From a virus: DNA of 64,000 nucleotides. Location: positions 1 to 64,000 of IMG/VR virus record IMGVR_UViG_3300033146_003479. One strand, given 5' to 3'. The position numbers were made by a program, and so were the translations under genes. Position 1 is the stretch's first letter; every line of letters starts with the position of its first letter. Shown here one piece after another: positions 3,634 through 56,158 of the stretch. Below the pieces are notes generated by a model. The model saw nothing but the letters and a program-made list of their open reading frames with translations, had not been told where the DNA came from and made no database searches.

Positions 3634-5394
3634 TTATGTTTGAGATGTTGTCCAACTAAGAACTTTATTGCCAGCATCATAAATTCTCAAATAATCGTTT
3701 GCGATCATGTTTTCATATTCACTTAATTGATCATCATATATATCTAACAGAGTCTTTAGTTTATGCTTTTGATATTTTATTCTCGAATCTAATAATAATT
3801 CAGTTCGCTTAAAATAAAAATAATTTGGACTACTAATTCCAATTTCTTGAAATTCATTATTAATATATCCTTGTCCATTAAAATATCGCAAATCAATATA
3901 TGTGATAATATTTTCTGGTTCCCAATCTCGTTTGAAATGAGTTAATAATTTTGAAAATCCACCTGCCACATGAAATCCTATTTTTGTGCAAGTTCTAATA
4001 TTTTCCCATTCATATGATTTATTAAACCTAGACTTACTAAAACTCATAAGTTGAACTAATTCACCATTATGATATAATCCCAGTTTAACTTTTGCTCCAA
4101 CGTATCCTTGTATGTGATTGTCCACTAAAAATGATCTATATTCAGAATTCGAAATTGATTTTATTTCACATTTCCTTGCAAATATAGATTGTGATTTCTT
4201 CAATTTCATTTGAATGATAGATTGAACAATGGGCTTTTGATTTATCCATTCAGATTCAAATATTTGAAAAACTTGAATGTTTTTTTCGTGAAAGAAATTC
4301 CATTTTTGTTGGTGAGCAAATTTCGATTTATGTAAATCTGAATGCCAATATAGTCCATGATACTCGATTCCAATATTAAATTCTGGTAACCATACATCCA
4401 ATTCAAAAAACTTCTTACCGTCATAATAAAATCGCTTATTCATTTGAATGTCTAAATCAGGATTCAAAGATAATAGCCATTGATTAATTTCAAATTCTGG
4501 CTTCGATTTGAAGGTATGTCTTGGACAATAGATGTTCTGAGGAATCAAAGATTCCATTGAAATTTCATTATCACATTGTAAACATTTATATGTTTTATGT
4601 CCTTTATCGAAATCAAACGAAATATAATCTTCTTTATTAAATAATGGAGTAATATATTTTAATGATAATAATTTTATAAAAGTATCCCAATAATTTTTAC
4701 GATAAGTGTCTCGCCAACTATCGATCATCTTCGCTCTAATTTCTGGGACCTGTGCAGTAAATTCATATCCATATCTTTCAACACAAGTGGATCTATTCTT
4801 ATCTGAATTGTTGAAGTTTTTATCTCCATATCGTTGAAGTTTTGTGTCTAATCCTTTTTGAAAAATATCTTTCGATTGAATAGCATGTTCTACTCCATAT
4901 CGTTCTAAATTAGTATTCTTTATTTGTTCTTGAACCTCTTTTGATTCCCAAGGATTAGATACTCCGAATTTCTCAATATTAGTATTTGCTCGTTTCTCAG
5001 CAACCTCTTTTTTCTCAATATCACTCTTTAGAGCATTTTTCTTGCCCAGATTAATGTAATAATCATCTCCATATTTTTTAAGAGTAGTCATCTTAGTTTT
5101 CTGAGATACAATAGCATGTGCTTTGGGATTTCGACGACATTTCATAGAACAAAATTGTTTGAGTTTTTGTGTGCTCGAATCGTATTTGATAATGTTTGTG
5201 TTGCAAATAGGACACTTCATGATTTCTGTGTGAGATTCTAAAAAATAAATCTTTCTTAATACTAAACTGGAATTTTTAGGTAAATATGAAGTAGCATCGA
5301 AAAATAAGTCATATTCACCTTCAGTTAAATTTTTGATCCATGATGGATGTGACGTTTTTAATGCCCGTATTTTATTTTGTAATTCAATATACAT
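3634..5394 (-). CDS. Large homing endonuclease with DUF723-type repeats and Vsr-like nuclease
   Basis: 586 residues. An N-terminal zinc site (C-P-I-C near residue 62, then F-C-S-M-K-C near 81) is followed by four or five short repeats of the form T-N-L-E-R-Y-G-V-x-x-x-x-Q-S (about residues 100-215), the DUF723-like segments seen in phage endonucleases. A second zinc site (C-x-x-C about 273) precedes a PD-(D/E)XK/Vsr-like core with F-E-L-D-V-W-L-P and I-G-I-E-Y-H-G-L-Y-W-H (about 330-352). The C-terminal 200 residues look like a conserved accessory domain. Start ATG 5394 has only a weak Shine-Dalgarno and lies 2 nt after the upstream endonuclease stop, suggesting translational coupling. The activity is inferred from family resemblance. 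Confidence 0.8.
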   Translation of the reverse strand: MYIELQNKIRALKTSHPSWIKNLTEGEYDLFFDATSYLPKNSSLVLRKIYFLESHTEIMKCPICNTNIIKYDSSTQKLKQFCSMKCRRNPKAHAIVSQKTKMTTLKKYGDDYYINLGKKNALKSDIEKKEVAEKRANTNIEKFGVSNPWESKEVQEQIKNTNLERYGVEHAIQSKDIFQKGLDTKLQRYGDKNFNNSDKNRSTCVERYGYEFTAQVPEIRAKMIDSWRDTYRKNYWDTFIKLLSLKYITPLFNKEDYISFDFDKGHKTYKCLQCDNEISMESLIPQNIYCPRHTFKSKPEFEINQWLLSLNPDLDIQMNKRFYYDGKKFFELDVWLPEFNIGIEYHGLYWHSDLHKSKFAHQQKWNFFHEKNIQVFQIFESEWINQKPIVQSIIQMKLKKSQSIFARKCEIKSISNSEYRSFLVDNHIQGYVGAKVKLGLYHNGELVQLMSFSKSRFNKSYEWENIRTCTKIGFHVAGGFSKLLTHFKRDWEPENIITYIDLRYFNGQGYINNEFQEIGISSPNYFYFKRTELLLDSRIKYQKHKLKTLLDIYDDQLSEYENMIANDYLRIYDAGNKVLSWTTSQT

Positions 5395-5396
5395 AT

Positions 5397-6506
5397 CTAA
5401 CTGCTAACTTTTTTCAAATGAAATGTTAAAATATCATCTATTTTCTCGAAATCCCAATATGGGATACGAACCAATTCAATGTTCTTCTCTAAACAATAAT
5501 CATTCTTAATAGTATCATGATGCTGAGTTTTTGCAAACTTTAACTCCATTTGACTTCGACTGCTAGCCCCAAAACCGCATGGTTTATAATGTTGCTCTCC
5601 ATCAAATTCAATTAATATATTATGATCAGATAAATAAAAATCAAATGGTAATGGTTGCTCATTCCTACAATCAGAAAATCGCTTCTCAGACTCAAAATTG
5701 ATATCATTACTTTGCAACCACTCTCTAATAGCCCTCTCACCCTTACTACTAGCACATACTGGACATCCTGTATTTGAAAATATACTATGTGGACTAGTTA
5801 GCCAAACATTGTTACACTCATTGCACCTAAACTTAATTTTAGTTTTCGAATTAATGTATTCCTCCAATGGAGTATACCTTTCTTTATACATGCTCTTTAA
5901 TTTTAAAAGAAATTCATCATTTGTTCTCTTATGTGTGCCAAAACATTTAGGACACCTATTTCCCCATAAAAAATCATTCCTCTTAACTGAATACTCGTGT
6001 CCACATACAATATGTTTCATTTCAACCTTATCATATGCTCCTGTATACTTACCAAGCACTTCATAGTCAGTTGATACTAACTCATTAACTTCTCGTTTAA
6101 ATTGCTCTGTCGTAATGGTTTTAACTCCAAAACAATTAGGACATCGAGTTCCTCCATTTAAGAAATTGCCTGGTTGAACCTTCCATTCATGACCACATGA
6201 AATATGTCGCATTAATATAGGAGTACTTTTATTAATATAATCTTCTAATACTACATATTCATCTTCAACTTTAGCAAACACTTCTTTAACAAATTGCTCA
6301 GGAGTCTTCTTTTTAGTTCCACCACATTGTGGACAACGATTGCCTCCTATGAAATATTCTGGACGACCTTGCCATTCATATCCACAAGAATTATGTCTCA
6401 TTAATATTGGAGTTCTTGTGTTAATATACTTTTCTAAAATTGTATATTCGTCTCCAACTAAATTGAAAACTTCTTCTTTAAATTGTTCTGATGTTTTTTT
6501 TCGCAT
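5397..6506 (-). CDS. Intact zinc-module homing endonuclease (I-Bth0305I-like)
   Basis: 369 residues from ATG 6506, which has AAGGAT 9 nt upstream; the longer frame begins with TTG upstream of a likely -10 element and was rejected. Four zinc modules of about 57 residues (T-x-E-Q-F, Y-x-V-L-x-x-Y, M-R-H-x-x-C-G-H-E-W, C-P-x-C) are followed by the nuclease domain with KRFSDCR, LPFDFYL, L-I-E-F-D-G-E-Q-H-Y and H-D-T-I-K-N-D-Y-C. The family cuts DNA in conserved phage genes to spread its own gene. It shares near-identical DNA with the truncated neighbour at 6618-7226, a sign of recent duplication or gene conversion. Confidence 0.85.
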   Translation of the reverse strand: MRKKTSEQFKEEVFNLVGDEYTILEKYINTRTPILMRHNSCGYEWQGRPEYFIGGNRCPQCGGTKKKTPEQFVKEVFAKVEDEYVVLEDYINKSTPILMRHISCGHEWKVQPGNFLNGGTRCPNCFGVKTITTEQFKREVNELVSTDYEVLGKYTGAYDKVEMKHIVCGHEYSVKRNDFLWGNRCPKCFGTHKRTNDEFLLKLKSMYKERYTPLEEYINSKTKIKFRCNECNNVWLTSPHSIFSNTGCPVCASSKGERAIREWLQSNDINFESEKRFSDCRNEQPLPFDFYLSDHNILIEFDGEQHYKPCGFGASSRSQMELKFAKTQHHDTIKNDYCLEKNIELVRIPYWDFEKIDDILTFHLKKVSS

Positions 6507-6538
6507 ACTTACTATCCTTATTATATTATCATTAGTGT

Positions 6539-6544
6539 AATATA
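6539..6544 (-). promoter_or_regulatory. Possible -10 element before the intact homing endonuclease
   Basis: TATATT preceded by TGA on the minus strand, as in the other sigma70-like promoters here, but with no good -35 at 17 bp. A TCTAAATA late-like motif also lies at 6619-6627. Either could drive the gene at 5397-6506. Confidence 0.35.
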
Positions 6545-6617
6545 TCAAAAATGTTGATATTTTAATAATAATTGAATCCTTATTTGGACAACAATTTATA
6601 GGATAAAAATTGTGATG

Positions 6618-14968: not shown

Positions 14969-15901
14969 TTACAAATTTATACTATTATTTAGAGTTTCCG
15001 CAATATCATTGATTTGCCAATAAGGGATTCTTAAAAGGGCAACGTTGTTGATTTCACAGAATGCATCTTTAATGTTATCCTTAATCATTCTATCGATTAA
15101 ATTTGTAATACGTGTTAAATTCGACTCATTAGACTTAAATGATGTAGGCAAATAATGTTGTTGTCCATCATATTCAATTAATAAATTATTCACAGGAAGA
15201 TAAAAATCAAAAGGTAAAGTATGTTTATCTTTGCAATTAGTAAATCGTTTTTGAATTTCATACTGAATATCATTATCATCTAAAAATTTACTTATTAGTG
15301 TCTCACCAGCACTTCGATGACATTTTGGACATCTATTCTTCCAAAGAAACGCTGAAGGCTTAATATCCCATTGATGTCCACACACATTATGTCGCATTAA
15401 CACATGTTCTTTGGATACAACATATTTTGTTAGGACTGAGTACTCATCTCCAACTAAATCAAAAACTTCTTTGATGAACATATCATGTGTTTTTTTATTT
15501 GAACAATTTGGGCAATGAGAGTTCTTTTGAAGTATCGAGTTGGCTTGAGGATTCCATATATGACCACAAACGTTGTGTCGAAGTCTAATAGTATCTCTAG
15601 AGGTAGTATATGTATTAATGATTGAATATTCAGAACCATATAATTCATAAACATCTAAAACAAACTGTTCATGTGATTTAGTCCGATTACGATATCGTGC
15701 TTTTTTCGCACATTCAGGACAGCGAACATTATCGTTGATAAAACTGCTCGCTCGAACATAATATTCGTGTTCACATATGTGATGTTTGATTTTAACCTTA
15801 GTTGACATATTAATGAATGCTCCTATTACGGAGTATTCATTGTTAGTTTTTTCGGACACTTCCGACACAAATTCGCTGTGAGTTCGTTTTAATGATTTCA
15901 T
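14969..15901 (-). CDS. Zinc-module homing endonuclease beside the portal gene
   Basis: 310 residues. Three zinc modules (F-V-x-x-V, Y-S-V-I/L, H-x-x-C-x-H, C-P-x-C) are followed by the same nuclease domain as the protein at 5397: K-R-F-T-N-C-K, L-P-F-D-F-Y-L, L-I-E-Y-D-G-Q-Q-H-Y, ending R-I-P-Y-W. The H-D pair of the paralogs is replaced around M-I-K-D-N-I-K-D-A-F-C, so one catalytic position may differ. No Shine-Dalgarno precedes ATG 15901; instead a 9-bp inverted repeat ends 2 nt upstream. Its 3' end overlaps the portal's promoter, a neat fit for intronless homing next to gene 20. Confidence 0.85.
   Translation of the reverse strand: MKSLKRTHSEFVSEVSEKTNNEYSVIGAFINMSTKVKIKHHICEHEYYVRASSFINDNVRCPECAKKARYRNRTKSHEQFVLDVYELYGSEYSIINTYTTSRDTIRLRHNVCGHIWNPQANSILQKNSHCPNCSNKKTHDMFIKEVFDLVGDEYSVLTKYVVSKEHVLMRHNVCGHQWDIKPSAFLWKNRCPKCHRSAGETLISKFLDDNDIQYEIQKRFTNCKDKHTLPFDFYLPVNNLLIEYDGQQHYLPTSFKSNESNLTRITNLIDRMIKDNIKDAFCEINNVALLRIPYWQINDIAETLNNSINL
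14986..14994 (-). promoter_or_regulatory. Late-like promoter CTCTAAATA for the portal gene
   Basis: CTCTAAATA on the minus strand ending 28 nt before ATG 14957. The same nonamer with the same AA 5' flank occurs at 39212-39220. It lies inside the final codons of the homing endonuclease gene. Confidence 0.5.
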
Positions 15902-24024: not shown

Positions 24025-27000
24025 CTAAAATGAAAAGTCAACAAATTGCATTGATGTGCTATTAAATTTAGACATGGAACTTGTAACATTGGACGTTAAA
24101 AAATTCGTTTTTCCAAAATTTAAACCACCAACAACATTAATTGTTTGTTTAGCAAATGAAAAATTGTAAATAAATGGATTTATAAATTTAAATAAATTCA
24201 AAGTTCCAAACACTGGAATATAAAGAAGGTTACTTACTACTTTTTCTTGATTATCAACTAACATATCTGAAGATAAGGATATATTTTTTATCGATATTGT
24301 CTTATGTTTATTTTGTTCACCCTCAATCACTGGCAATTTAATATCTGCTATAATACTTTTATGTTTTTCGAAATCTTTTCCGCAAAACTCAAAAACTTGA
24401 CGATACATATTGTCACCTATCTTTTGCACATAATATATCTGACCAAATAAGTTCATTTGAGTTTCTGAATTCTTTCCATAACTCATTCTATCACCAAACC
24501 ACAATGAACCATCAGCATTGCAAATCAATTGTTCTCCTAAGAAGATTGGTAAAGTAATAGGTCTTAATATTGGAAATAATGCAAATGTTGGTAATGTAAA
24601 TAATCCTCCTGAAGTCTGTTTTGCTACTGTTTTTGGGGTTTCATATTTTTGTTCAGTGGTAGTATATTTGATATATTTATCTATAATATTACCATCATCA
24701 CCATCTCTAAATATAACTGGAATACCTTTAAAATCATTAATATTATACTCATAAGTATTTAAATTAGGTAAATAATAGTCTATTGCAATTCTATATAATT
24801 GAGAAAAAGAACTCATGTCCTTTTGAATAACTGAGTCCGTCATGACTAAATCAGAATATGACATTTTATGTTTGATATTGCTAATTTTCAATTTTGCACT
24901 ATATGTTTTCATATCATGAGTTTCTCCTAACCACGAAAATGTCTCAGTCTTACTCTGAAATGTTTTAAAATGCAGGTTAGAAACACTTCTAATGATAGGA
25001 GATAAATTCACATCATTAGTTTTAATAACACTTTTAAATACTATTTGTTCTTGAGTTTCGTCAAACGAAATTTCATCATTAAGGAAACATTCAAACCACA
25101 ATTTAGTTTCACTAGTGACATCTTTCTTATCTATACTATAAAAATATTGAACTGAGCAACCTGCCACAGCATAATCTTCACCAACAATCATAATTCTATC
25201 AAATGGCTCTTTGAATGATGATGAATTTGGATCACTATGATATGCCCAATGTGGAGAATATATCTCAACGCTCTCTTTATATAATTCTGAATAGTTATCT
25301 ACAGACAAATCAATCTTCAATATTCTATTATTATAAGTAGTATCATTAACTATTAATTTACTATCAAAATTTGATGGATAAGAAACTTGAGTTTGAGTTG
25401 CTGATATATCATATGATCCATTCTCAATGAAATACAATTCTACTTCTGCACTATCTGAAATTACACTTCGTTCTTTTAATAATCCTATGAAAAATTGTGA
25501 GCCTTTTGGGATATGAATAGGAGTTTCCAACTCAATGTGAACATTTTCATTATTAATCATTACTACACTATCACTATCATCATTCTTAAATCGAACTAGT
25601 TCGGTATGAACAATGCTATTTTTTGTCATTTTACCATCAATTAAGAAACCCAAATAAAAAGCAATTCTACCTTCATAATGTCTTAAACTATCATATGTGA
25701 ATTTCATTCCAACATCAAATGATCTCAACATATGAGATTCATTAAATTGATAAACTTGATATATGTTTGGTAAATAGGTCTTCCAATATTCATCTTTCAA
25801 TATATCCAAAAACTCATATTCATTTAATTCATTTTGAGGATCTCTTAATTTCTCATAATGAAGTGTCGCTACTGATTTAAGTGAATTGGGCACAGAAGGT
25901 CCCAATTCACTTGATAAAAATGGAATATCATATGTCTGAAAAAGTAATGGACGATTTATTTGTTTAAAAATAAAATCATATTCGTCATTAAATGATCCAA
26001 AAGATGATGCATTTTTTACTTTTGTTAAGCATCTATCTATTTGCCAGCCCATTGCATTTGTAGTATCGTGATCTATGAAGGAATTATCTTCATTTAATGA
26101 TACATTTCGTCCATTCATCATTCCAACGGAATAAATTCCATCAATTAAATATAAACAAGAATCAGTAAATTTATTAATCATTGGCATATACTGATCTTGA
26201 TCGCCAATATGATGACTATACAATTTCATTGGAGAAAAATGAAAATTATCAATACTCAATGCTGTAAAATTATCATAAGATGAATTATTGTAAAAATTCG
26301 GAATAGATAACTCTTCATTTTGAATTTGATGAAACGCTTTTATATTAGATTGATTTTCTGATTGATCAATTATTTTATTTATTGGACAAACTCTTGGAGT
26401 CAAAAATAATCGATTGTAATTGAACAATTTTAAATTAGTCTGAATAGGAGACACTTTGCTATTAAATAGATAATTAAATTCGTCTCCTTTTTGATAAATA
26501 TTCTTTGAAGATATTGAAAACAATTCTTCATCTATAAAATGACTATCTTTCAACGATATTTTATGATTAACCGAGTTATCTAATTCCATAACATCATATA
26601 ACAACACAGTATTAATATCTTTCTTATTAACTGCATCTGAATTGAACTGTAAATCAAATTCATTCAACATCAATGTCTTATTACTAATAGTATTATAATT
26701 GAAATCAAAACTTCCAGTCTTAAACTTCAATGTCTCAACTATCTTTGTGGATGATGATGTCGGTTTCAATGTAAAAAACACATCATCAGCATCGCTTTGG
26801 AAATTATCATTAATTAGCCACGTAAGACGTTTTGTTTCAATTGTCTTCGCTTTTGGGGAAAAGTCATTATTATGCAAATTAATTGTTGGGATACTATTCT
26901 CTCCCAAACTAGAATCATATTGCCACATCATGGAAGACATTTCATCATTGTCATCACCAAATGTAAATTCACTATCCTCAATATACTGATTAGTTAATAA

Positions 27001-30000
27001 CGAATCATATACATTATATGTCTTTGGATTCATAAATGTTTGAGTTCTCTTATAGTGTTCATGTTCAACAACTACAGGCATCATTACATAAAATCGATTC
27101 ATTTCAGTTTCACTTAAAAACACATTCACACTATCTGATAATAATAAAGTATTAGAGTCTAGTATACTAGATATCATATATGACCAATATGTTTCAGTGT
27201 CATCATCATACACTTTGATGATATTGCCACTTTTTAATTCAGAATAAACATCTACGTCAGTAACCGTCACTGTTTTATTAAATGTCGCTGGTTGTCCCCA
27301 TGAATCTATCTTTGGGAAAAACGCAATTCCAAAATTATCAGGGTTATCAATTGTCATTTGAGAAACATTCCTTGAAAAATCCACTGTCCAAGTCTGATAT
27401 TGAGGACTCGCACCTATCGAAGGAATAGTCTCGATATCTATTAATTCTCCATATATCGTTGTGCTACTCCCTAGATTCCAAACACTTATTATCATATTAT
27501 TCTTAAATTTATCAAATGTTTGTCCCGATGAACAAATTAAAATATCATCAATATAATAATCATAAGATGTATATGGAAAATCAAAAGCACCACCGGTCTG
27601 AGATGCCTTAATATCAAATGAGAACGTGTTATTAGTTTTCATAATCTGTAAATTAGACAGGCTTATAAAACATTCATAATTACTGGAACTCAATTGCGTA
27701 AACATTTTAGATTCAATCGTTCCCTTCTCTATGTATTGATAATCACCAACCACTTTATCGTTATTTGAAGTAATATGTCCATCTCTACGATTATATTCAT
27801 GAATTCGCATCAAATCTGTCATTTGCTTATTACTATCAATCTTTTTATTCATTTGATAATTTTCAATTTTCTCAAACACATCTTCATTGAAATTCTTAAA
27901 GTATTTTGATAATCCTATGAAATTTAATGACTTTCCATATACTGAATCATCATAAACTGGAGGATTAATAATTGAACCTAAATATAACTTTTCATTATCA
28001 AAAATTGGAGCAAAATCAGACACAAATGTGTGATGTCCGGTTAGTGTCTCGATGTCTCCATCATCATTGAGATATATGTTCACCATTTCGGGCAACAATA
28101 TATCATACAAGAACGTTTGATATCCTTTAATCTCTATAGATTGATTTTCTATTTCTGATGAATCAACATATATGATCGCTTTATGAGAATAATCGCAAAC
28201 TTTTCCCTCGGTCTCTGTGATCCAAGTGTTAGTTCCATCTTCTATTAACCTATTATGTTGTTCGAATCGCTCTTTAACTATAATAAACGGCTTATGAAAC
28301 TCACTATTCAAACTTTTTGCTTGAAAATATTGATTTTCCGAATCAATATTTGCATGTGAATTGCTAGGATTATTAAACGGAGCACTTATTATAACATCAT
28401 TTTTACTTTCAATCTCTTTATATACGGACAATTTAATCGCATCTCCTGTCGATAAAGAGATAATCGTATCTGAATCATATAACTTTTTAGTTTCTGGATT
28501 TATATTATTCTCATATTTTTGCCAAAATTGTCCACCATCTTGATATGCATATAGTTGTTGTTTTATTAATTGATGCTCAATATAATCATCGGAATTCCCA
28601 AACATTAAATTGTTATATTTATATTCTGAAGATGGTTCAGAATATGTATTGAAAAAATAATTAAAAGATGCCTGCTCATTCACTAACGGATAACATGTCC
28701 AAATACAATGATTATCCACATATTGTTCTCCAGGGCGTTTTCCCCAAACTTCAGGATAAAATCCATTGATAGTTGTTTGTCCCGATGTGGTTACAATATA
28801 TTTCACAGGGGCTTCAGCCTTCGGATGATGAACTGGAATATATGTGGTCCCTTTAGAAGCATGAACTCCTGGATTATATTTAGTAATAAATGAATCATTC
28901 TTTGATGATGTTCTAAGCCATACGTCCCCTCCGAGAGGATCTATAAAATCATTAAATGAACAATCCTCAAATAATGGTCTATCAGGAGTGTCACCATCAA
29001 CAGTTTTAATAAAACACTCTTGGTAATGATTACGAAAACATCTCCAGTAATTATATACGGAGTCATGACTCGAATTAGCAATGGGACTTTGAGAATTATT
29101 ATCCACTGTGCTCATATAACAATTCACATCATCGTCTGACATTGTAACTATTGAGCCTTTATCGTAAGATGTACCTGATAAATACTTTTCTTCGCAATTA
29201 ACATAAATAATAGATTGTGTAGGCAACTCATTTACAGCGTTCCAATCATTGGCACCATTTGTTACCAAATACACATCGTCTTCGTCGATCACTTGGCATG
29301 TCCAAATTATTTCTCCATCAACGATTGAATCTCCAGGATTATCATTAATTGGATCAAAAGGAGTATTCGCTCCACTCGTACCTCCGTTATTTTGAGTATA
29401 TTGTTTAAAATTTTCAGGAGAATAAAATATAATATTCTGTTGATATTCATGGTCTGCCATCCAAGCATTCATATTATTAACATAAGTGGATTTCAAATAA
29501 TTCCGTTCTTGATTTAACACACTATTAAATTGAAGAGCCATACTCATTTTTGGAGTCCAATGATAAAATTGGACTCCTAGTCCTTGCTGTAATTGAATAG
29601 GAGTCGAACTAACAGACTTATCGTAAATAGACAATAATTTAGATCCTGCTACTGACCCAATATTTGATTCCGAAATACACGCTCCTATTCCTGTACTAAC
29701 TATAGGAAATTGACACTGAGAAACATATTCTTCTGAATTATATTGTAATGCCATTCCCGTTTTTATCTTATAATTATCCTTTGAATTATCTAAAATTGAA
29801 TGATTATGTTCTATGAAAAATGCTTCTTTTGATTTAATAGCCCAATCTACTGTTAAATCAGTAGCAGTTAAGTCTGACGTATTTAATATCAATTGAAATG
29901 ATTGAAATACATCGTCTATATTATAGTCCACATTATTCAATGATAACACTGAATTCGGCATATAATTTTTATGAGAAAGAACTTCATTTTTTGGAGAATA

Positions 30001-33000
30001 AATATCAAACATCGCTCTTTCAAAAAAGACTTGTCGTCTTTTATCTAATGCAATCCAATTAAAATCATCAATAGAATCATCCAATGTTGTCCATCTACAA
30101 ATATCATAATCCAATTGAATATTATAATTATCTAATTCATGAAGAATGTGTTTTGGGAAATTTGTGATACTCGGCACAAGGTCATCAAACTCATCATCCT
30201 TTAAAATTAAAATTCCCTTATCTGATGAATGAGATGTGATGAAATAAAATGGATTATCATAAATAGAAGAAGGTTGCCAGTCGATGCTACATTTTGGGTC
30301 TTTACCTGTTATATACATAAAATATGGATTCCCTGCATACCAAAATGTAAAGTAATCTCCTGGGAAAATCGAAGTGGATCCTTGTGGATTAGTGGTAGAT
30401 TGAAACCAGTTTTCATTCTCTGGAGGACGCAAATAATATCCCTCATTAGACACATAATGGATGGTACATAATAATTCACTATTTGATGGATTAGCATTCA
30501 TATCTGAAACTTTACTTCTTCTGGGCCCTGCAATTACAATACTATTTGATACCTCGGTTGTATTATTTTGCAGTTGAAAACTTCTAATCTCAATATTTTC
30601 CTTCGAAGAATCATGAGAAAAATGTTTATAATTAAATGCTTCGTTATCCGAAGGAGTTCCTAAAATCTCATCATCACTTCTTTCCTTTAATTTATTACCA
30701 TATACAGAAACAACTCCTTTAACTTTATCTCCTGTTATCGTTGTGTCGAACCGAATTGCTCCCCAATTCGGTATACCTGCGATAGGTTGAATTGTTAAAG
30801 TATCATCATACTCTACAATTGTGGTGATAGTTTTATTCAATATTTTTCGCACAAATGGAATAGGCAATCTAGAATATTCATGAAACATTGTATTGTTTTC
30901 TAAATCATATTTTGTATCCGAAGTTCTTCTGATTTTAATTCCTTTTTCGACAAACATATCTTGCTCAAACAAACTATCTTCTGTTTCACTAGTATTATCA
31001 ATAACAATTCTAGTTGATTTAGAAACATTGTCATCATGATAATTCACAAATGGCTCTAAATCAGTGTAATCTTTACCATTCAAAAATTCAATATTATGAA
31101 AAAATATCTTAGAGTATAGAGAATTAGTATAACTATAATAACAAACATTCGGTTGCAAAAAACTTCCAGTATTACCCGCATCAAATGGAGTATCAACTCT
31201 AACATGGGGTTCATATGTGAATTTAAATCGAAACATGGACTTTGTTTGTAATGAAAATACATGCTTTTGATAATCACTCATAATAAATGAAAATTCAAAT
31301 TTTGAATATGTAGTTGCGGATTGATAAAAAAATGAACCATATAATGCTACTGCGTTCGAAGATGCAGTTTCGATTCTCAATTTCTTTAATAGACGATTCA
31401 TATCTCCATTCATAGCACCTAAATGAAGTTCATTTTGATTGCCGTCTGGAGCAACATGCTTATCTTTTAATACAAAATCACCAGTAACTCTTCTCACTTC
31501 AATATCATCTTCAACATCGATTCTAGTGATGGAAAATGAATTTCCCTTTGTAATTTTATTAAATTTATCAATAGATAATGATTCAAAGTCGGACATAGTT
31601 AAAATCAATGAGGATTCCACTGAACGAACTTTTTTAACTTGGTTACCGATTTTAATGTAACATGGATAATCAACATAATTTCCTTGAATAATTTCATCTG
31701 GAATACCTTTGAATTTGACAAGTTCTCCACCTGGCATTTCAGATGTGAAATCAACATACGCTCTATGTTTAGTTTGAATCCAGTCATAATCATCTTCTTT
31801 ATGTGGAGCGGCATCTTGAGAACATATATTTGCCTTCGCTATATCTATCCATTCTGGTGAAGATGAGTTGTGATTAAATTTTTGGATTTTTATTTTTCTA
31901 CCAGGCAATAAAAATTGATATATATTCATTGGATCAGTTAAATGATGAACTCGTTCCTCTATTGGAACTCCCTTTAATGCAAAATCAGTTAATTCATATG
32001 GTAATTTGAAATAAATTCCGGATTCAGCATTACTTTCATTCTTATGATAAGTTAATTTATTAAAATTTCGAGGAAAACTATTACTTGTACCTGAAATTTC
32101 ATATTTAGGCTTATCTAATTTTAAAATCTTATTTTCAGTGATAGGAATGTTAGTATTATTTATTTGTCCGACTCCTTTTTTGACAATCACATAATTCACA
32201 TTATCATCTTTTATCTTAGCATTATCATTTGTTAGATTTTTTTCGATTGAGCCATATTTCAGATTCTCAGTAATAGTCCATAAATTAAACTCTATTATTG
32301 ATGTAAATGATGTAATAAATGGTATAAATTGATATCCCACAAACACCGCTGAGAATATTGGCAAAAACGCCCAAGGAACATGAGGTATATCTGGAGCACT
32401 ATCACTTAATGCAGGAATATTATAAAATAAATTTGCAATATCTAAAGATTGCGTACTTAATAATGCTGTCTCATCACCATCTGTAGTAAGAGATTCCATA
32501 GACTTATAATCTCTGTTAGACATCTTCATATCAGTCAAAGAATTAACGTGAATGGATAATCCATCTATTATTTCATTATTATATGAAACATTTTCATCTA
32601 AAATATCACTTATTTTATGTTGACGATTAAAATATTGAACATTTTCAATTTCTACTTTACCAATCGGAGGTTCAATGAGATTGGATTGAATCACATCTAT
32701 CTTAGCGAAGTCGAAATACTGAATTATTGTAGTATTAGAAGAAGTCATCTGACTCATTGCAAATTCCTTTTCTATAAACTCAAATTCAACTAATAGTCTA
32801 TCTGCTCCAATGAGACCCTCATCTAAATGATATTTAACTGCTGGATCCTTTAAATTCTCATCATCCTCTGCATCAACAATAAAATATTTAACTTGTAATC
32901 CTAATTCGAAGGATAATTTTCCATCCTGAAGAGTTGGAATTTGAGATGAAGTTAGTTTATAATCTAACGAATTAATTTTCCAAACAGTTCCATCATAATA

Positions 33001-33306
33001 CACTAATCCAGACTCAGCAATTATAAACCACGAATCGGCATTACCATCATTCGAAGTGTCTCGTTTTTCTATCGATAAACTCATCCCTTGAACAATACTT
33101 CCATTCCTAAAGAATATATCTAAGAAATCTTTACCTTTCTCATTCAAAATGGTTTGCATTTGAGTGAGTTCTCTAGTTTGTAGCGGACGTCCAGGTTTGA
33201 ATAAAATTTGTCGATAATCTTTTGAGTTTGAATCTGATGAAAAATAGTCATCAAAATAATCGGCTTCTCTTAAATTATTTCTATTTACAATTGGTTTTTT
33301 GGCCAT
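24025..33306 (-). CDS. Giant virion structural protein with DUF4815-like N-terminus
   Basis: 3093 residues from a single open frame. The N-terminus has the pattern Y-R-Q-I-L-F-K-P-G-R-P-L-Q-T-R-E-L near residue 31 and M-Q-T-I-L-N-E-K-G-K near 48, as in DUF4815 proteins of cyanophage and T4-like phage baseplates. The remainder is Asn/Ser/Thr/Tyr-rich, mostly beta, with many W-x-C-Y/W-x-C motifs around residues 1260-1550 that suggest repeated carbohydrate-binding-like beta units. AGAGGT precedes ATG 33306 and a GATAAATA late-like promoter lies 37 nt upstream. Probable peripheral baseplate or fibre protein; sequence gives no receptor information. Confidence 0.8.
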   Translation of the reverse strand: MAKKPIVNRNNLREADYFDDYFSSDSNSKDYRQILFKPGRPLQTRELTQMQTILNEKGKDFLDIFFRNGSIVQGMSLSIEKRDTSNDGNADSWFIIAESGLVYYDGTVWKINSLDYKLTSSQIPTLQDGKLSFELGLQVKYFIVDAEDDENLKDPAVKYHLDEGLIGADRLLVEFEFIEKEFAMSQMTSSNTTIIQYFDFAKIDVIQSNLIEPPIGKVEIENVQYFNRQHKISDILDENVSYNNEIIDGLSIHVNSLTDMKMSNRDYKSMESLTTDGDETALLSTQSLDIANLFYNIPALSDSAPDIPHVPWAFLPIFSAVFVGYQFIPFITSFTSIIEFNLWTITENLKYGSIEKNLTNDNAKIKDDNVNYVIVKKGVGQINNTNIPITENKILKLDKPKYEISGTSNSFPRNFNKLTYHKNESNAESGIYFKLPYELTDFALKGVPIEERVHHLTDPMNIYQFLLPGRKIKIQKFNHNSSSPEWIDIAKANICSQDAAPHKEDDYDWIQTKHRAYVDFTSEMPGGELVKFKGIPDEIIQGNYVDYPCYIKIGNQVKKVRSVESSLILTMSDFESLSIDKFNKITKGNSFSITRIDVEDDIEVRRVTGDFVLKDKHVAPDGNQNELHLGAMNGDMNRLLKKLRIETASSNAVALYGSFFYQSATTYSKFEFSFIMSDYQKHVFSLQTKSMFRFKFTYEPHVRVDTPFDAGNTGSFLQPNVCYYSYTNSLYSKIFFHNIEFLNGKDYTDLEPFVNYHDDNVSKSTRIVIDNTSETEDSLFEQDMFVEKGIKIRRTSDTKYDLENNTMFHEYSRLPIPFVRKILNKTITTIVEYDDTLTIQPIAGIPNWGAIRFDTTITGDKVKGVVSVYGNKLKERSDDEILGTPSDNEAFNYKHFSHDSSKENIEIRSFQLQNNTTEVSNSIVIAGPRRSKVSDMNANPSNSELLCTIHYVSNEGYYLRPPENENWFQSTTNPQGSTSIFPGDYFTFWYAGNPYFMYITGKDPKCSIDWQPSSIYDNPFYFITSHSSDKGILILKDDEFDDLVPSITNFPKHILHELDNYNIQLDYDICRWTTLDDSIDDFNWIALDKRRQVFFERAMFDIYSPKNEVLSHKNYMPNSVLSLNNVDYNIDDVFQSFQLILNTSDLTATDLTVDWAIKSKEAFFIEHNHSILDNSKDNYKIKTGMALQYNSEEYVSQCQFPIVSTGIGACISESNIGSVAGSKLLSIYDKSVSSTPIQLQQGLGVQFYHWTPKMSMALQFNSVLNQERNYLKSTYVNNMNAWMADHEYQQNIIFYSPENFKQYTQNNGGTSGANTPFDPINDNPGDSIVDGEIIWTCQVIDEDDVYLVTNGANDWNAVNELPTQSIIYVNCEEKYLSGTSYDKGSIVTMSDDDVNCYMSTVDNNSQSPIANSSHDSVYNYWRCFRNHYQECFIKTVDGDTPDRPLFEDCSFNDFIDPLGGDVWLRTSSKNDSFITKYNPGVHASKGTTYIPVHHPKAEAPVKYIVTTSGQTTINGFYPEVWGKRPGEQYVDNHCIWTCYPLVNEQASFNYFFNTYSEPSSEYKYNNLMFGNSDDYIEHQLIKQQLYAYQDGGQFWQKYENNINPETKKLYDSDTIISLSTGDAIKLSVYKEIESKNDVIISAPFNNPSNSHANIDSENQYFQAKSLNSEFHKPFIIVKERFEQHNRLIEDGTNTWITETEGKVCDYSHKAIIYVDSSEIENQSIEIKGYQTFLYDILLPEMVNIYLNDDGDIETLTGHHTFVSDFAPIFDNEKLYLGSIINPPVYDDSVYGKSLNFIGLSKYFKNFNEDVFEKIENYQMNKKIDSNKQMTDLMRIHEYNRRDGHITSNNDKVVGDYQYIEKGTIESKMFTQLSSSNYECFISLSNLQIMKTNNTFSFDIKASQTGGAFDFPYTSYDYYIDDILICSSGQTFDKFKNNMIISVWNLGSSTTIYGELIDIETIPSIGASPQYQTWTVDFSRNVSQMTIDNPDNFGIAFFPKIDSWGQPATFNKTVTVTDVDVYSELKSGNIIKVYDDDTETYWSYMISSILDSNTLLLSDSVNVFLSETEMNRFYVMMPVVVEHEHYKRTQTFMNPKTYNVYDSLLTNQYIEDSEFTFGDDNDEMSSMMWQYDSSLGENSIPTINLHNNDFSPKAKTIETKRLTWLINDNFQSDADDVFFTLKPTSSSTKIVETLKFKTGSFDFNYNTISNKTLMLNEFDLQFNSDAVNKKDINTVLLYDVMELDNSVNHKISLKDSHFIDEELFSISSKNIYQKGDEFNYLFNSKVSPIQTNLKLFNYNRLFLTPRVCPINKIIDQSENQSNIKAFHQIQNEELSIPNFYNNSSYDNFTALSIDNFHFSPMKLYSHHIGDQDQYMPMINKFTDSCLYLIDGIYSVGMMNGRNVSLNEDNSFIDHDTTNAMGWQIDRCLTKVKNASSFGSFNDEYDFIFKQINRPLLFQTYDIPFLSSELGPSVPNSLKSVATLHYEKLRDPQNELNEYEFLDILKDEYWKTYLPNIYQVYQFNESHMLRSFDVGMKFTYDSLRHYEGRIAFYLGFLIDGKMTKNSIVHTELVRFKNDDSDSVVMINNENVHIELETPIHIPKGSQFFIGLLKERSVISDSAEVELYFIENGSYDISATQTQVSYPSNFDSKLIVNDTTYNNRILKIDLSVDNYSELYKESVEIYSPHWAYHSDPNSSSFKEPFDRIMIVGEDYAVAGCSVQYFYSIDKKDVTSETKLWFECFLNDEISFDETQEQIVFKSVIKTNDVNLSPIIRSVSNLHFKTFQSKTETFSWLGETHDMKTYSAKLKISNIKHKMSYSDLVMTDSVIQKDMSSFSQLYRIAIDYYLPNLNTYEYNINDFKGIPVIFRDGDDGNIIDKYIKYTTTEQKYETPKTVAKQTSGGLFTLPTFALFPILRPITLPIFLGEQLICNADGSLWFGDRMSYGKNSETQMNLFGQIYYVQKIGDNMYRQVFEFCGKDFEKHKSIIADIKLPVIEGEQNKHKTISIKNISLSSDMLVDNQEKVVSNLLYIPVFGTLNLFKFINPFIYNFSFAKQTINVVGGLNFGKTNFLTSNVTSSMSKFNSTSMQFVDFSF

Positions 33307-52803: not shown

Positions 52804-53037
52804 CTATTGAAATTGACTCATTTGCTGTTCCATTCGCTCTCTCTCTTGTTTTTTCTTCTCAGTAAGCATACGAAGAAACATATCTCTCTCAAACGGATAC
52901 ATTCTCATAATCTCATCAAATAACCATTTCTCTCGCAACTCCAATAAACTATCATATAATGATTCTAATTTGTGAGCAAAAATTAAACTAATGAAAAAAA
53001 AAATTGTTGAATTGCTACCTCTTGTTCGAATCCACAC
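52804..53037 (-). CDS. 51: gp51-like tail assembly protein, probably made by -1 frameshift from gp26
   Basis: The frame holds I-F-A-H-K-L-E then W-L-F-D-E-I-M-R-M-Y-P-F-E-R near the middle, a pattern I associate with small gp51-type hub assembly proteins of T4-like phages, and a charged coiled-coil end (E-K-K-K-Q-E-R-E-R-M-E-Q). The only start near its upstream end is GTG 53037, with a poor ribosome site; the ATGs come late. It overlaps the end of the gp26-like frame by 55 nt in the -1 phase across a run of ten T. A fused product of about 307 residues is therefore more likely than independent initiation. Confidence 0.65.
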   Translation of the reverse strand: MWIRTRGSNSTIFFFISLIFAHKLESLYDSLLELREKWLFDEIMRMYPFERDMFLRMLTEKKKQERERMEQQMSQFQ

Positions 53038-53726
53038 TCTTTATCTTCACAAGTCAATGTCTTTGAATAAATTAATTTTGGACTATTTCTAATGAAATCT
53101 TCAACGTCGACTACAAATTTTGCAGGCAAAGATAATATAAATTCTCTCAATTCATCTCGGTCAAAATCAGTCTTAGTTTCATCGCCAATTGTAACACTAT
53201 CAATTGAATTTAAAACATTTTCTATCATAGATTCCTCAGATAACTCTTTAACGCCTAAAATAATATCCTTATTAACCATAAACGAAGTCACTTTAATGGA
53301 AATAATAATGTCCTTTTCTGCACCCTCTCTAGATGGAATAGTGATATTTCGTTTAAAATTCTCATAGTTTTCAACATGAATATCATTAATTAAAATATTC
53401 TTCGAATATTCTAATCCACAATTCTCACACTTAACTACAACTGGAATACTCTCAGAATCACTATTTAATTTGAGTTTCGCAAGAAGATATTGAATGTCTA
53501 CCAATGTGATATCAGACGCTTGCTTTGGAGTTAAAGCGTACTTTTCAACAACCATATTATATAATACATCCATTAAAATAGCATACTCTTGATTCATTTG
53601 GGCTTGAGATATTGTGAATTGATCCTTCACTGTATATGGAGTCCCTCGAACATCTTCATTTGTTGATAGTATTTTCTCACTAAAGAAAAAGGTATTCATC
53701 GCTTTAGATTCTTTTCTTAAATCCAT
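52983..53726 (-). CDS. 26: Tail/baseplate assembly chaperone, gp26-like
   Basis: 247 residues (T4 gp26 208). T4_baseplate family, needed for hub or tail assembly. Features: a central zinc ribbon split between C-E-N-C near residue 100 and C-E-D-K-E-C near 230, I-T-I-P-S-R near 124 and a helical C-terminal half. AGGAG before ATG 53726, ACTAAATA promoter upstream. Ends in F-F-F-S-L-V across a T10 run that may shift to the gp51-like frame. Confidence 0.8.
   Translation of the reverse strand: MDLRKESKAMNTFFFSEKILSTNEDVRGTPYTVKDQFTISQAQMNQEYAILMDVLYNMVVEKYALTPKQASDITLVDIQYLLAKLKLNSDSESIPVVVKCENCGLEYSKNILINDIHVENYENFKRNITIPSREGAEKDIIISIKVTSFMVNKDIILGVKELSEESMIENVLNSIDSVTIGDETKTDFDRDELREFILSLPAKFVVDVEDFIRNSPKLIYSKTLTCEDKECGFEQEVAIQQFFFSLV
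52994..53003 (-). promoter_or_regulatory. T10 slippery site for -1 frameshifting
   Basis: On the coding strand CAA-CAA is followed by ten T then CATTAG. Zero frame reads Q-Q-F-F-F-S-L-V-stop; a -1 slip on the last TTT enters the gp51-like frame at F-I-S-L-I-F. A stop in the -1 frame at 53041-53043 limits entry to this short stretch. Confidence 0.55.
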
Positions 53727-53760
53727 TATTTTCTCCTAATTAAATTAACATCACAACTAT

Positions 53761-53773: not shown

Positions 53774-56158
53774 CTAATTTTCTTCAAAATAAGTAAATGA
53801 AAAATTAACCTCGAATTTAGTTAAATCATCAGTTGAATCAAAACCAAATTCACTATATGTAACTTTTGTAGGATGCATATTATAAAATGTGAACTCTTTT
53901 ACTGGAGTTTGAGCGACCATATCATCCCCTAACTTAATTTGACTCGTGAATCGACTTTGACTGTTAGTTAATTGTGTACTATTAGATGGATTTATAAAAT
54001 CAACAAACGACTTGTGGAAAATTCGGTCATCAGTGTTCTCGTCAGCAAACCAGGTATCATGCGGTTTTCCCATTGCCATTAAGTAATTAAAAAAGAATTC
54101 TGGATAGGAAGGGACTAATGATGATGTAGGTAAACTTGATAGAGTTATCATATCATTCCATAACATATCTATTCCCACATTCGGATCCAAATTCCTAGCA
54201 ACATTTTCACTAATAAGCATTTTTTTAAAATCAACTAATGAGAACGTAAAGGTATATGCAGATAACGCTAAGGCTAATATCTGTAACACTTTCACACTCA
54301 CTCCTTTAACCTTATTTACAGTATCATTCACTTTTGAAAATCCTTTTTTGCCGTGAGGAAAAGTGTTACCTCGACTCTCTTTAACTAATTCACCATTTTT
54401 AACCACTAAAACATCATCGTCCAAATCGAAACTAAATGGATTGGCAATATTATTGAATGCATTTTGCTGTTCTCTATAAAATGTCTGCTCCAATTGTTTC
54501 TTCAAGCCTGCCATTCTAGTTTTCCCATAGCCGGTACTACCAGTCATAGAGCCTATCGGAATTAAATTCTCATCAAAAAAATAGCCATTCGTTAACGACT
54601 CATTCGCAGCAATTTGTTTCAAAATATATTCAATTTTTTCTTTCATATCCTTATTTGTATATTTTTTACTTTTTTTAAATGCCATCAGTCTATCTTTAAA
54701 TGTACTTTTAAGATTCTCATATTTTTTTTGTCCAACCTCATATTTATCTGATGATTTTCGAAGTCCCTTTTGAATCTCATTAAATGTATCTTTCAATGAA
54801 TCAAAATAATTTTCTTTAGATCCATTTTTCTGCAAAACTCCATATTCAATTCCCATATCAATATGAGTTTGCTCTATAATACTTTTTATTTCTGGATTTT
54901 CTAATAATTCATCCCAAGATTCTCGATATTTTTCATCAGAAAGTTGTTCAATTAACGCATCTAACTCCTCTTCAACTGATATTCTCTCATATTCAGCATC
55001 CGGTTTTCCCAAAGTTAAATTTTTTATGCGAGTTAAATCCGAGTCAGAGACAGAATCATCCTTATTTGCTGTTTCGGCGATAGCATTTAAAATATCATTG
55101 TTCTTAATATTTTCAATTAAGTCTGGGCTTGCATATTGAATAAAATATTCCATCATTTTTTGACTTTGATTTGTCAAGGTCTCCGTTGCAAAATCTCCAT
55201 CAGAATGTTCATTATCTAATATTCCAACTCCAAAAGCGGCTAACTCTGATGCCCATTCAATTCCGGCTGAAGCATAAACAAAAGTTATTTTAAATGTTTT
55301 CTGCAGAGTTTTCAAGAAAGTTGTGTTATAATACCACTCTCCATCTTTAACATTTTCCATCTCATTAACTACATTTCGCCACGATGTATGAAAATCGTTA
55401 AAATGCTTCTCATAATAAGTCTGATCGGTTGAGACTGCTCCTATAGATTCCTTCATATCATACTTTAGAGTATCCTCTTCGTGTAATTGACCTGGAGTCG
55501 TAATATCTTGTGATCCAACTACTGGGAAATATTGATATACTTTAACTTTTGGACAAACATAATCTCTAAAATATCGCATTCTCGTAGTAATAGGTTTTCC
55601 CTCATTATCGAGAATATACATATTATCCATCCAAATCTTGAAAAACTCACTTAAATTAAAGTACTTTAAAATTTTACCACTAGTGTTATATTGATAAACT
55701 TTATCATAAAAACTCACACTAATATCATCAAAATCAGTCCCTTTAGGTAAAGTCCACTCACGATTCAATATCTTCACTTGTCGAGTATTATTAGTTTGAT
55801 TTAATCCTGTAACTTTATGAGCCAAAACTTTTAAGTGAGCATTAGACTGATCATCTGGTAAAAAAACATCTAGAAATAAATCAATAAACTCATTAGTCTT
55901 TGTATTACGAAATGATTTAAAAATCTCTCTGGTTCGAGCATCGATAATCAATTCAAATTCAAACCAACAATTCTTCGGTACCTGAGAAACTAAATTTTTC
56001 ACATGAACATTATTAACTTCTCCAAAAGATATTGAATTAAATGTGTCTATTTTATCAAGTTTCTCTCCCGTATATATATTAGATCTATCAGATCTAATTG
56101 GACGACTCTCTCCTCTAGAATCCTTTAATGGAGGAGAACTTGAAATTTTACCGGGCAT
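53774..56158 (-). CDS. Tail-tube-like protein with a large internal insertion
   Basis: 794 residues. Residues about 60-215 have the gp19-like tube pattern: N-R-E-W-T-L-P-K-G near 129, D-D-I-S-V-S-F-Y-D near 142 and F-F-K-I-W-M-D-N-M near 166. The last 60 residues match the end of tube proteins: E-F-T-F-Y-N-M-H-P-T near 750, then F-E-V-N-F-S-F-T-Y-F. Between them lie about 480 residues, mostly charged helix, with one hydrophobic stretch (about 640-660) that could span a membrane. GAGGT before ATG 56158. Probably a tube, tube-adaptor or injected virion protein; T4 has no such protein. Confidence 0.6.
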   Translation of the reverse strand: MPGKISSSPPLKDSRGESRPIRSDRSNIYTGEKLDKIDTFNSISFGEVNNVHVKNLVSQVPKNCWFEFELIIDARTREIFKSFRNTKTNEFIDLFLDVFLPDDQSNAHLKVLAHKVTGLNQTNNTRQVKILNREWTLPKGTDFDDISVSFYDKVYQYNTSGKILKYFNLSEFFKIWMDNMYILDNEGKPITTRMRYFRDYVCPKVKVYQYFPVVGSQDITTPGQLHEEDTLKYDMKESIGAVSTDQTYYEKHFNDFHTSWRNVVNEMENVKDGEWYYNTTFLKTLQKTFKITFVYASAGIEWASELAAFGVGILDNEHSDGDFATETLTNQSQKMMEYFIQYASPDLIENIKNNDILNAIAETANKDDSVSDSDLTRIKNLTLGKPDAEYERISVEEELDALIEQLSDEKYRESWDELLENPEIKSIIEQTHIDMGIEYGVLQKNGSKENYFDSLKDTFNEIQKGLRKSSDKYEVGQKKYENLKSTFKDRLMAFKKSKKYTNKDMKEKIEYILKQIAANESLTNGYFFDENLIPIGSMTGSTGYGKTRMAGLKKQLEQTFYREQQNAFNNIANPFSFDLDDDVLVVKNGELVKESRGNTFPHGKKGFSKVNDTVNKVKGVSVKVLQILALALSAYTFTFSLVDFKKMLISENVARNLDPNVGIDMLWNDMITLSSLPTSSLVPSYPEFFFNYLMAMGKPHDTWFADENTDDRIFHKSFVDFINPSNSTQLTNSQSRFTSQIKLGDDMVAQTPVKEFTFYNMHPTKVTYSEFGFDSTDDLTKFEVNFSFTYFEEN

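Follow-up and report, generated by a model that had tools for sequence, protein, structure and literature searches.

The window analysed here, a 64-kb stretch of DNA (64,000 nucleotides) taken from a virus record of 134,396 bases, very probably contains the genes for the tail-assembly chaperones of a divergent T4-like phage, where −1 slippage joins a gp26-like and a gp51-like reading frame. Two overlapping frames are present, both parts have recognizable homologues, and the slip site is conserved across the family. We infer that slippage occurs, at a rate that would leave most ribosomes terminating in the gp26 frame, that the slipping machinery is the ribosome and not RNA polymerase, and that the two products act as chaperones.

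The phage itself is T4-like, as its portal protein is approximately 37% identical to cyanophage portals and profiles in the window include a T4-type major head protein and a baseplate wedge. Three homing/HNH endonuclease genes lie near the head and portal genes (3634-5394, 5397-6548, and 14969-15901, minus strand), and a 3093-aa protein (24025-33306, minus strand) resembles phrog_877 at its N terminus only. Directly upstream of the gp26-like gene is a gene for 794 aa (53774-56158, minus strand), with similarity to tail-tube families in two short stretches only (phrog_4542 at residues 105-155 and phrog_45 at 750-792). In some related phages its place is taken by a gene of about 170-200 aa that encodes a tail tube or tube-initiator protein, and the 794-aa gene may hold a large insertion.

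The short chaperone form (TAC-N) is encoded by the gp26-like gene at 52983..53726 on the minus strand (247 aa), preceded by a probable Shine-Dalgarno ribosome-binding site, AGGAG, at 53733..53737 on the same strand. Its product belongs to the Pfam family PF12322 (T4_baseplate; E 8.5e-22, residues 10-241), is also matched by phrog_150 (E 3.5e-20), and gives an AlphaFold2 model with a pLDDT of 90.1 and a pTM of 0.84. No match to this model was found in a PDB fold search at E <= 0.001, and a sequence search against solved structures returned chance-level matches only. As the initial annotation had described, the protein ends in QQFFFSLV-stop (CAA CAA TTT TTT TTT TCA TTA GTT TAA) over a run of ten T, located at 52994..53003 on the minus strand. 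The gp51-like C-terminal extension (TAC-C) lies in the −1 frame at 52804..53040, minus strand, which a stop at 53041-53043 closes upstream; residues 14-75 of its 77-aa ORF match phrog_634 (baseplate hub assembly catalyst; E 5.1e-9). The gp51 homology thus sits directly downstream of the gp26-like short form, as in other T4-like gp26/gp51 chaperones. This frame has no usable start before its conserved part: the sole start-like codon ahead of it is a GTG at 53037-53035, which lies within gp26.

The last slippery heptamer available in the gp26 frame is T_TTT_TTT at 52995..53001 (minus strand), and it aligns with the corresponding site of relatives (..FF-R/F-I-A/S-L..). The locus therefore has the arrangement of the chaperone family, with a poly-T heptamer in the overlap and an extension in the −1 frame. 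A slip on this heptamer in silico (53001-52995) produces a fusion of exactly 307 aa, where about 307 had been proposed, with the junction QQFFFFISLIFAHK. The fused sequence matches phrog_150 at 15-281 in one stretch that runs through the junction, with a score of 89.0 bits compared with 73.6 bits for gp26 alone, a gain of 15 bits. Profile searches were required for this comparison, since a direct BLASTP comparison with T4 gp51 gave no alignment through the junction.

To place the locus among its relatives, we examined ten named phages with annotation (cyanophages, Rhizobium phages, C48C1, and a Vibrio phage) and 80 further loci from viral contigs. The contigs were collected by a pattern on the N-terminal gp26 motif and were consequently unselected for a slip site. 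T_TTT_TTN, usually coding for Phe-Phe, was present at the 3′ end of gp26, with gp51 in the −1 frame, in all 80 contigs and in nine of the ten named phages (89/90), and the −1 frame continued as ..IALSH..L..YY.TNF.LMQHHKYSLTE.ENM.PWEREIY... When the window is included (n = 90), the heptamers are T_TTT_TTC in 58 loci, T_TTT_TTT in 28, T_TTT_TTA in three, and T_TTT_TTG in one. The codon ahead of the last two slip codons ended in T at 90 of 90 loci, where 54 would be expected from the codon usage of the same genes, and the first slip codon was TTT in 90 of 90, where 65 would be expected; this expectation is naive in that it ignores relatedness and the constraint of the −1 frame, though the proteins are widely different. 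In a cultured relative with six T followed by C (T6C), such as P-SSM4, the predicted junction peptide is ...LASFFRIALMHADLR. Together, the conserved slippery run, the synonymous constraint, and the phrog_150 gain through the junction strongly support the proposed −1 frameshift and its likeness to the G/GT chaperones of long-tailed phages.

The only named phage without T_TTT_TTN is the Vibrio phage D506 (1986-2186), whose gp26 ends SLFK-stop over TCA CTT TTC AAG TAA and whose −1 frame is weakly gp51-like. The window protein is itself distant, approximately 18-27% identical to the relatives with which it was aligned. No close relatives of its gp26 or of the downstream neighbour were found in the viral_contigs collection, and gp26 was not found in the contigs with the nearest portal genes, which are fragments.

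At ten T, the run at the window junction exceeds every other A/T homopolymer of the window, which has a GC content of 30.7% and, in a census of all 64 kb, contains three runs of nine A/T and no second run of ten. Its placement exceeds chance, given that it is the longest such run and that 89 of 90 relatives carry the heptamer at the corresponding position. Across the sampled junctions (n = 90), the run is six, seven, or eight T long, save in the window. A directed search for at least nine T at the junction spacing returned 50 loci, every one with exactly T9, which were mostly true gp26/gp51 junctions and of which 29 were distinct. These IMG/VR loci (L111-L160) place an exact T9 at the gp26/gp51 junction of many contigs, mostly with a gp26 ending D-F-F-L-stop. 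We consequently tabulated 119 junctions (the 90 sampled, comprising 89 with 6-8 T and the window, plus the 29 distinct T9 loci), and the T10 of the window compares with 6-9 T in the other 118. A search of the viral contigs for a T10 junction pattern gave no other match, although the window's own record may lie outside the contigs searched. Apart from this long T-run, nothing about the locus is unusual.

Ribosomal frameshifting in bacteria is classically stimulated by Shine-Dalgarno-like elements and by structures downstream. In the relatives, pairing of the anti-Shine-Dalgarno sequence with the 24 nt ahead of the slip codons has an energy of −6.6 kcal/mol, compared with −5.2 for synonymous-codon shuffles, and such an element most often lies 10 or 8 nt from the heptamer. 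Predicted RNA structure peaks directly after the heptamer (mean z −1.33, with a third of loci below −2) over an upstream baseline of −0.44 to +0.12, and a second, weaker dip occurs 200-240 nt downstream. In the window, no structure was predicted directly after the heptamer (z 0.13), and the candidate Shine-Dalgarno-like stimulator, GAGG at 53018..53021 (minus strand), is 16 nt upstream of the heptamer rather than the usual 8-10. The usual ribosomal stimulators therefore look weak in this phage. A trade-off of T-run length against downstream structure was also considered and was unsupported, as the T6 and T9-10 groups did not differ in downstream structure (p = 0.26).

The weak stimulators, the length of the T-run, and the absence of the heptamer from D506 all count against our explanation, and the first two bear on which enzyme slips. 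RNA polymerase may add one U, or drop two, on T10, after which normal translation would give the fusion, alone or besides ribosomal slippage; we regard this as possible, though on balance unlikely. Bacterial RNA polymerase slips efficiently in vivo at nine A or T (PMC5009743), a length that T10, the longest of the tabulated junctions and one without a second match in the viral contigs searched, exceeds. Cassettes for transcriptional slippage have at least nine A or T at a frame junction, as the window does, and there are precedents in Thermus dnaX and Citrobacter tssM (11 A; PMC4256274). The Shine-Dalgarno-like elements of the T9-T10 group are also weaker than those of the T6 group (p = 8e-4, without correction for AT content or relatedness). 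However, downstream structure showed no clear difference between the two groups, and the commonest heptamer, T_TTT_TTC, offers the polymerase a run too short for efficient slippage, so the ancestral mechanism was most likely ribosomal. Because T10 is longer than the nine A or T at which slippage is efficient, part or all of the slippage in the window phage may be transcriptional; ribosomal and transcriptional slippage at T10 look the same in sequence.

It is far less probable that no slippage is involved. In one such case, gp51 would be a separate protein, made from its own start (the GTG at 53037) or by re-initiation past the gp26 stop. Public records, including five of those we examined (L003, L005, L006, L010, and L011), do list gp51 as a separate short gene, often with an internal start, and in around half of the relatives a start codon of some kind occurs among the nine codons that follow the slip site. 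Yet the GTG of the window falls within the gp26 gene, ahead of the slip site, and lacks a conserved counterpart. At 37 of 90 loci, no start codon occurs before the conserved domain or close to where it begins, and in many relatives the distance from the opening of the −1 frame to the gp26 stop is only 10-25 nt, too short to fit a start codon before that domain. A separate gp51 would also leave the synonymous conservation of T_TTT_TTN unexplained, and we consider it very unlikely. The annotated internal starts in these five records and others remove the conserved N-terminal part of gp51, and such genes look like mis-annotated frameshift products. Equally improbable, or slightly more so, is a homopolymer error, whereby the real run would be T8 or T11 and gp26-gp51 a single in-frame gene. 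The record is a contig of an uncultivated virus, long homopolymers are error-prone, and in-frame fusions exist, such as T4 gp51. Nevertheless, the sampled relatives have two separate frames together with the slip site, and in one of them (L019), which is arranged like the window but with T8, gp26 ends DFFSLV-stop.

Under −1 slippage, the reading we favor, most ribosomes on the gp26-like gene would stop at TAA and release the 247-aa short form, while a slip on T_TTT_TTT would yield the 307-aa long form with its gp51-like extension. By analogy with gpG/gpGT of phage lambda, the short form would probably coat the tape-measure protein, whereas tail-tube subunits would probably be recruited by the C-terminal portion of the long form. 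It is tempting, if rather speculative, to see one chaperone family with three routes to a pair of short and long proteins: ribosomal −1 slippage (T6C), RNA-polymerase slippage (T9-T10, including the window), and gene duplication (T4). If true, this would parallel the known switch between ribosomal and transcriptional slippage in dnaX. The T9-T10 members offer a testable case of such a possible switch, for which the T9 contigs are a good set. Many gp51 genes annotated as stand-alone are probably the final part of a protein made by frameshifting.

T4 has no frameshift at this locus. Its genes 26 and 51, whose products are listed as hub assembly chaperones (PMC3004832), are on opposite strands and do not overlap. 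Both proteins belong to PF12322, with weak mutual similarity (E 2e-6, a single comparison), and the gp51-type family is matched by T4 gp51 only, not by T4 gp26. Profile coverage reaches position 235 for gp26 and position 280, the end of the fused profile, for gp51; together with the shared family, this indicates that the short (26) and long (51) forms are separate genes in T4. By sequence, the two genes are paralogues and gp51 is a natural in-frame long form, and near-full-length genes of this in-frame type are found in more than 1,300 phage records of the T4 group. The initial annotation had named separate, non-overlapping genes without a T-run in a related phage as evidence against a frameshift. 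T4 is such a phage, but it does not refute the frameshift, since T4 gp51 has a gp26-like domain of its own.

Beyond T4, the locus can be compared with other short and long chaperone pairs. P2 gpE/gpE+E′ also belongs to a contractile tail, with a −1 frameshift annotated at T_TTT_TTG, and lambda gpG/gpGT shares the overlapping frames, the −1 frameshifted long form, and the same proposed logic, although its short protein has 140 aa rather than 247. The gp26 profile had no similarity to either P2 E or lambda G (hhalign probability <1% in each case, against a single sequence). The closest counterpart is the TAC-N/TAC-NC system of T4-like phages. The abstract of the study by Vladimirov and colleagues on these genes reportedly mentions genes 26 and 51 of T4 and describes frameshifting as conserved in several T4-like groups. 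While the initial annotation was not aware of a frameshift being established for T4-type gp26/gp51, it is in print, as judged from the papers that cite that work (Vladimirov, Gautam & Davidson 2022, Virology 566:9-15, as cited in PMC10885494 and PMC12846349). PMC12846349 refers to it for TAC-N genes with poly-T signals for −1 frameshifting, and these citing papers also refer to it for separate short and long genes in some members. The window differs from those systems in its T10, compared with T6-T9, in its low identity, and in having no detected downstream structure; it shares with them the gp26/gp51 pair, the poly-T at the end of TAC-N, the −1 phase, and the predicted fused long form. The mechanism is thus already known, and the window represents a further, very divergent member, which would extend the gp26/gp51 frameshift to a T4-like lineage that is only about 25% identical to its relatives.
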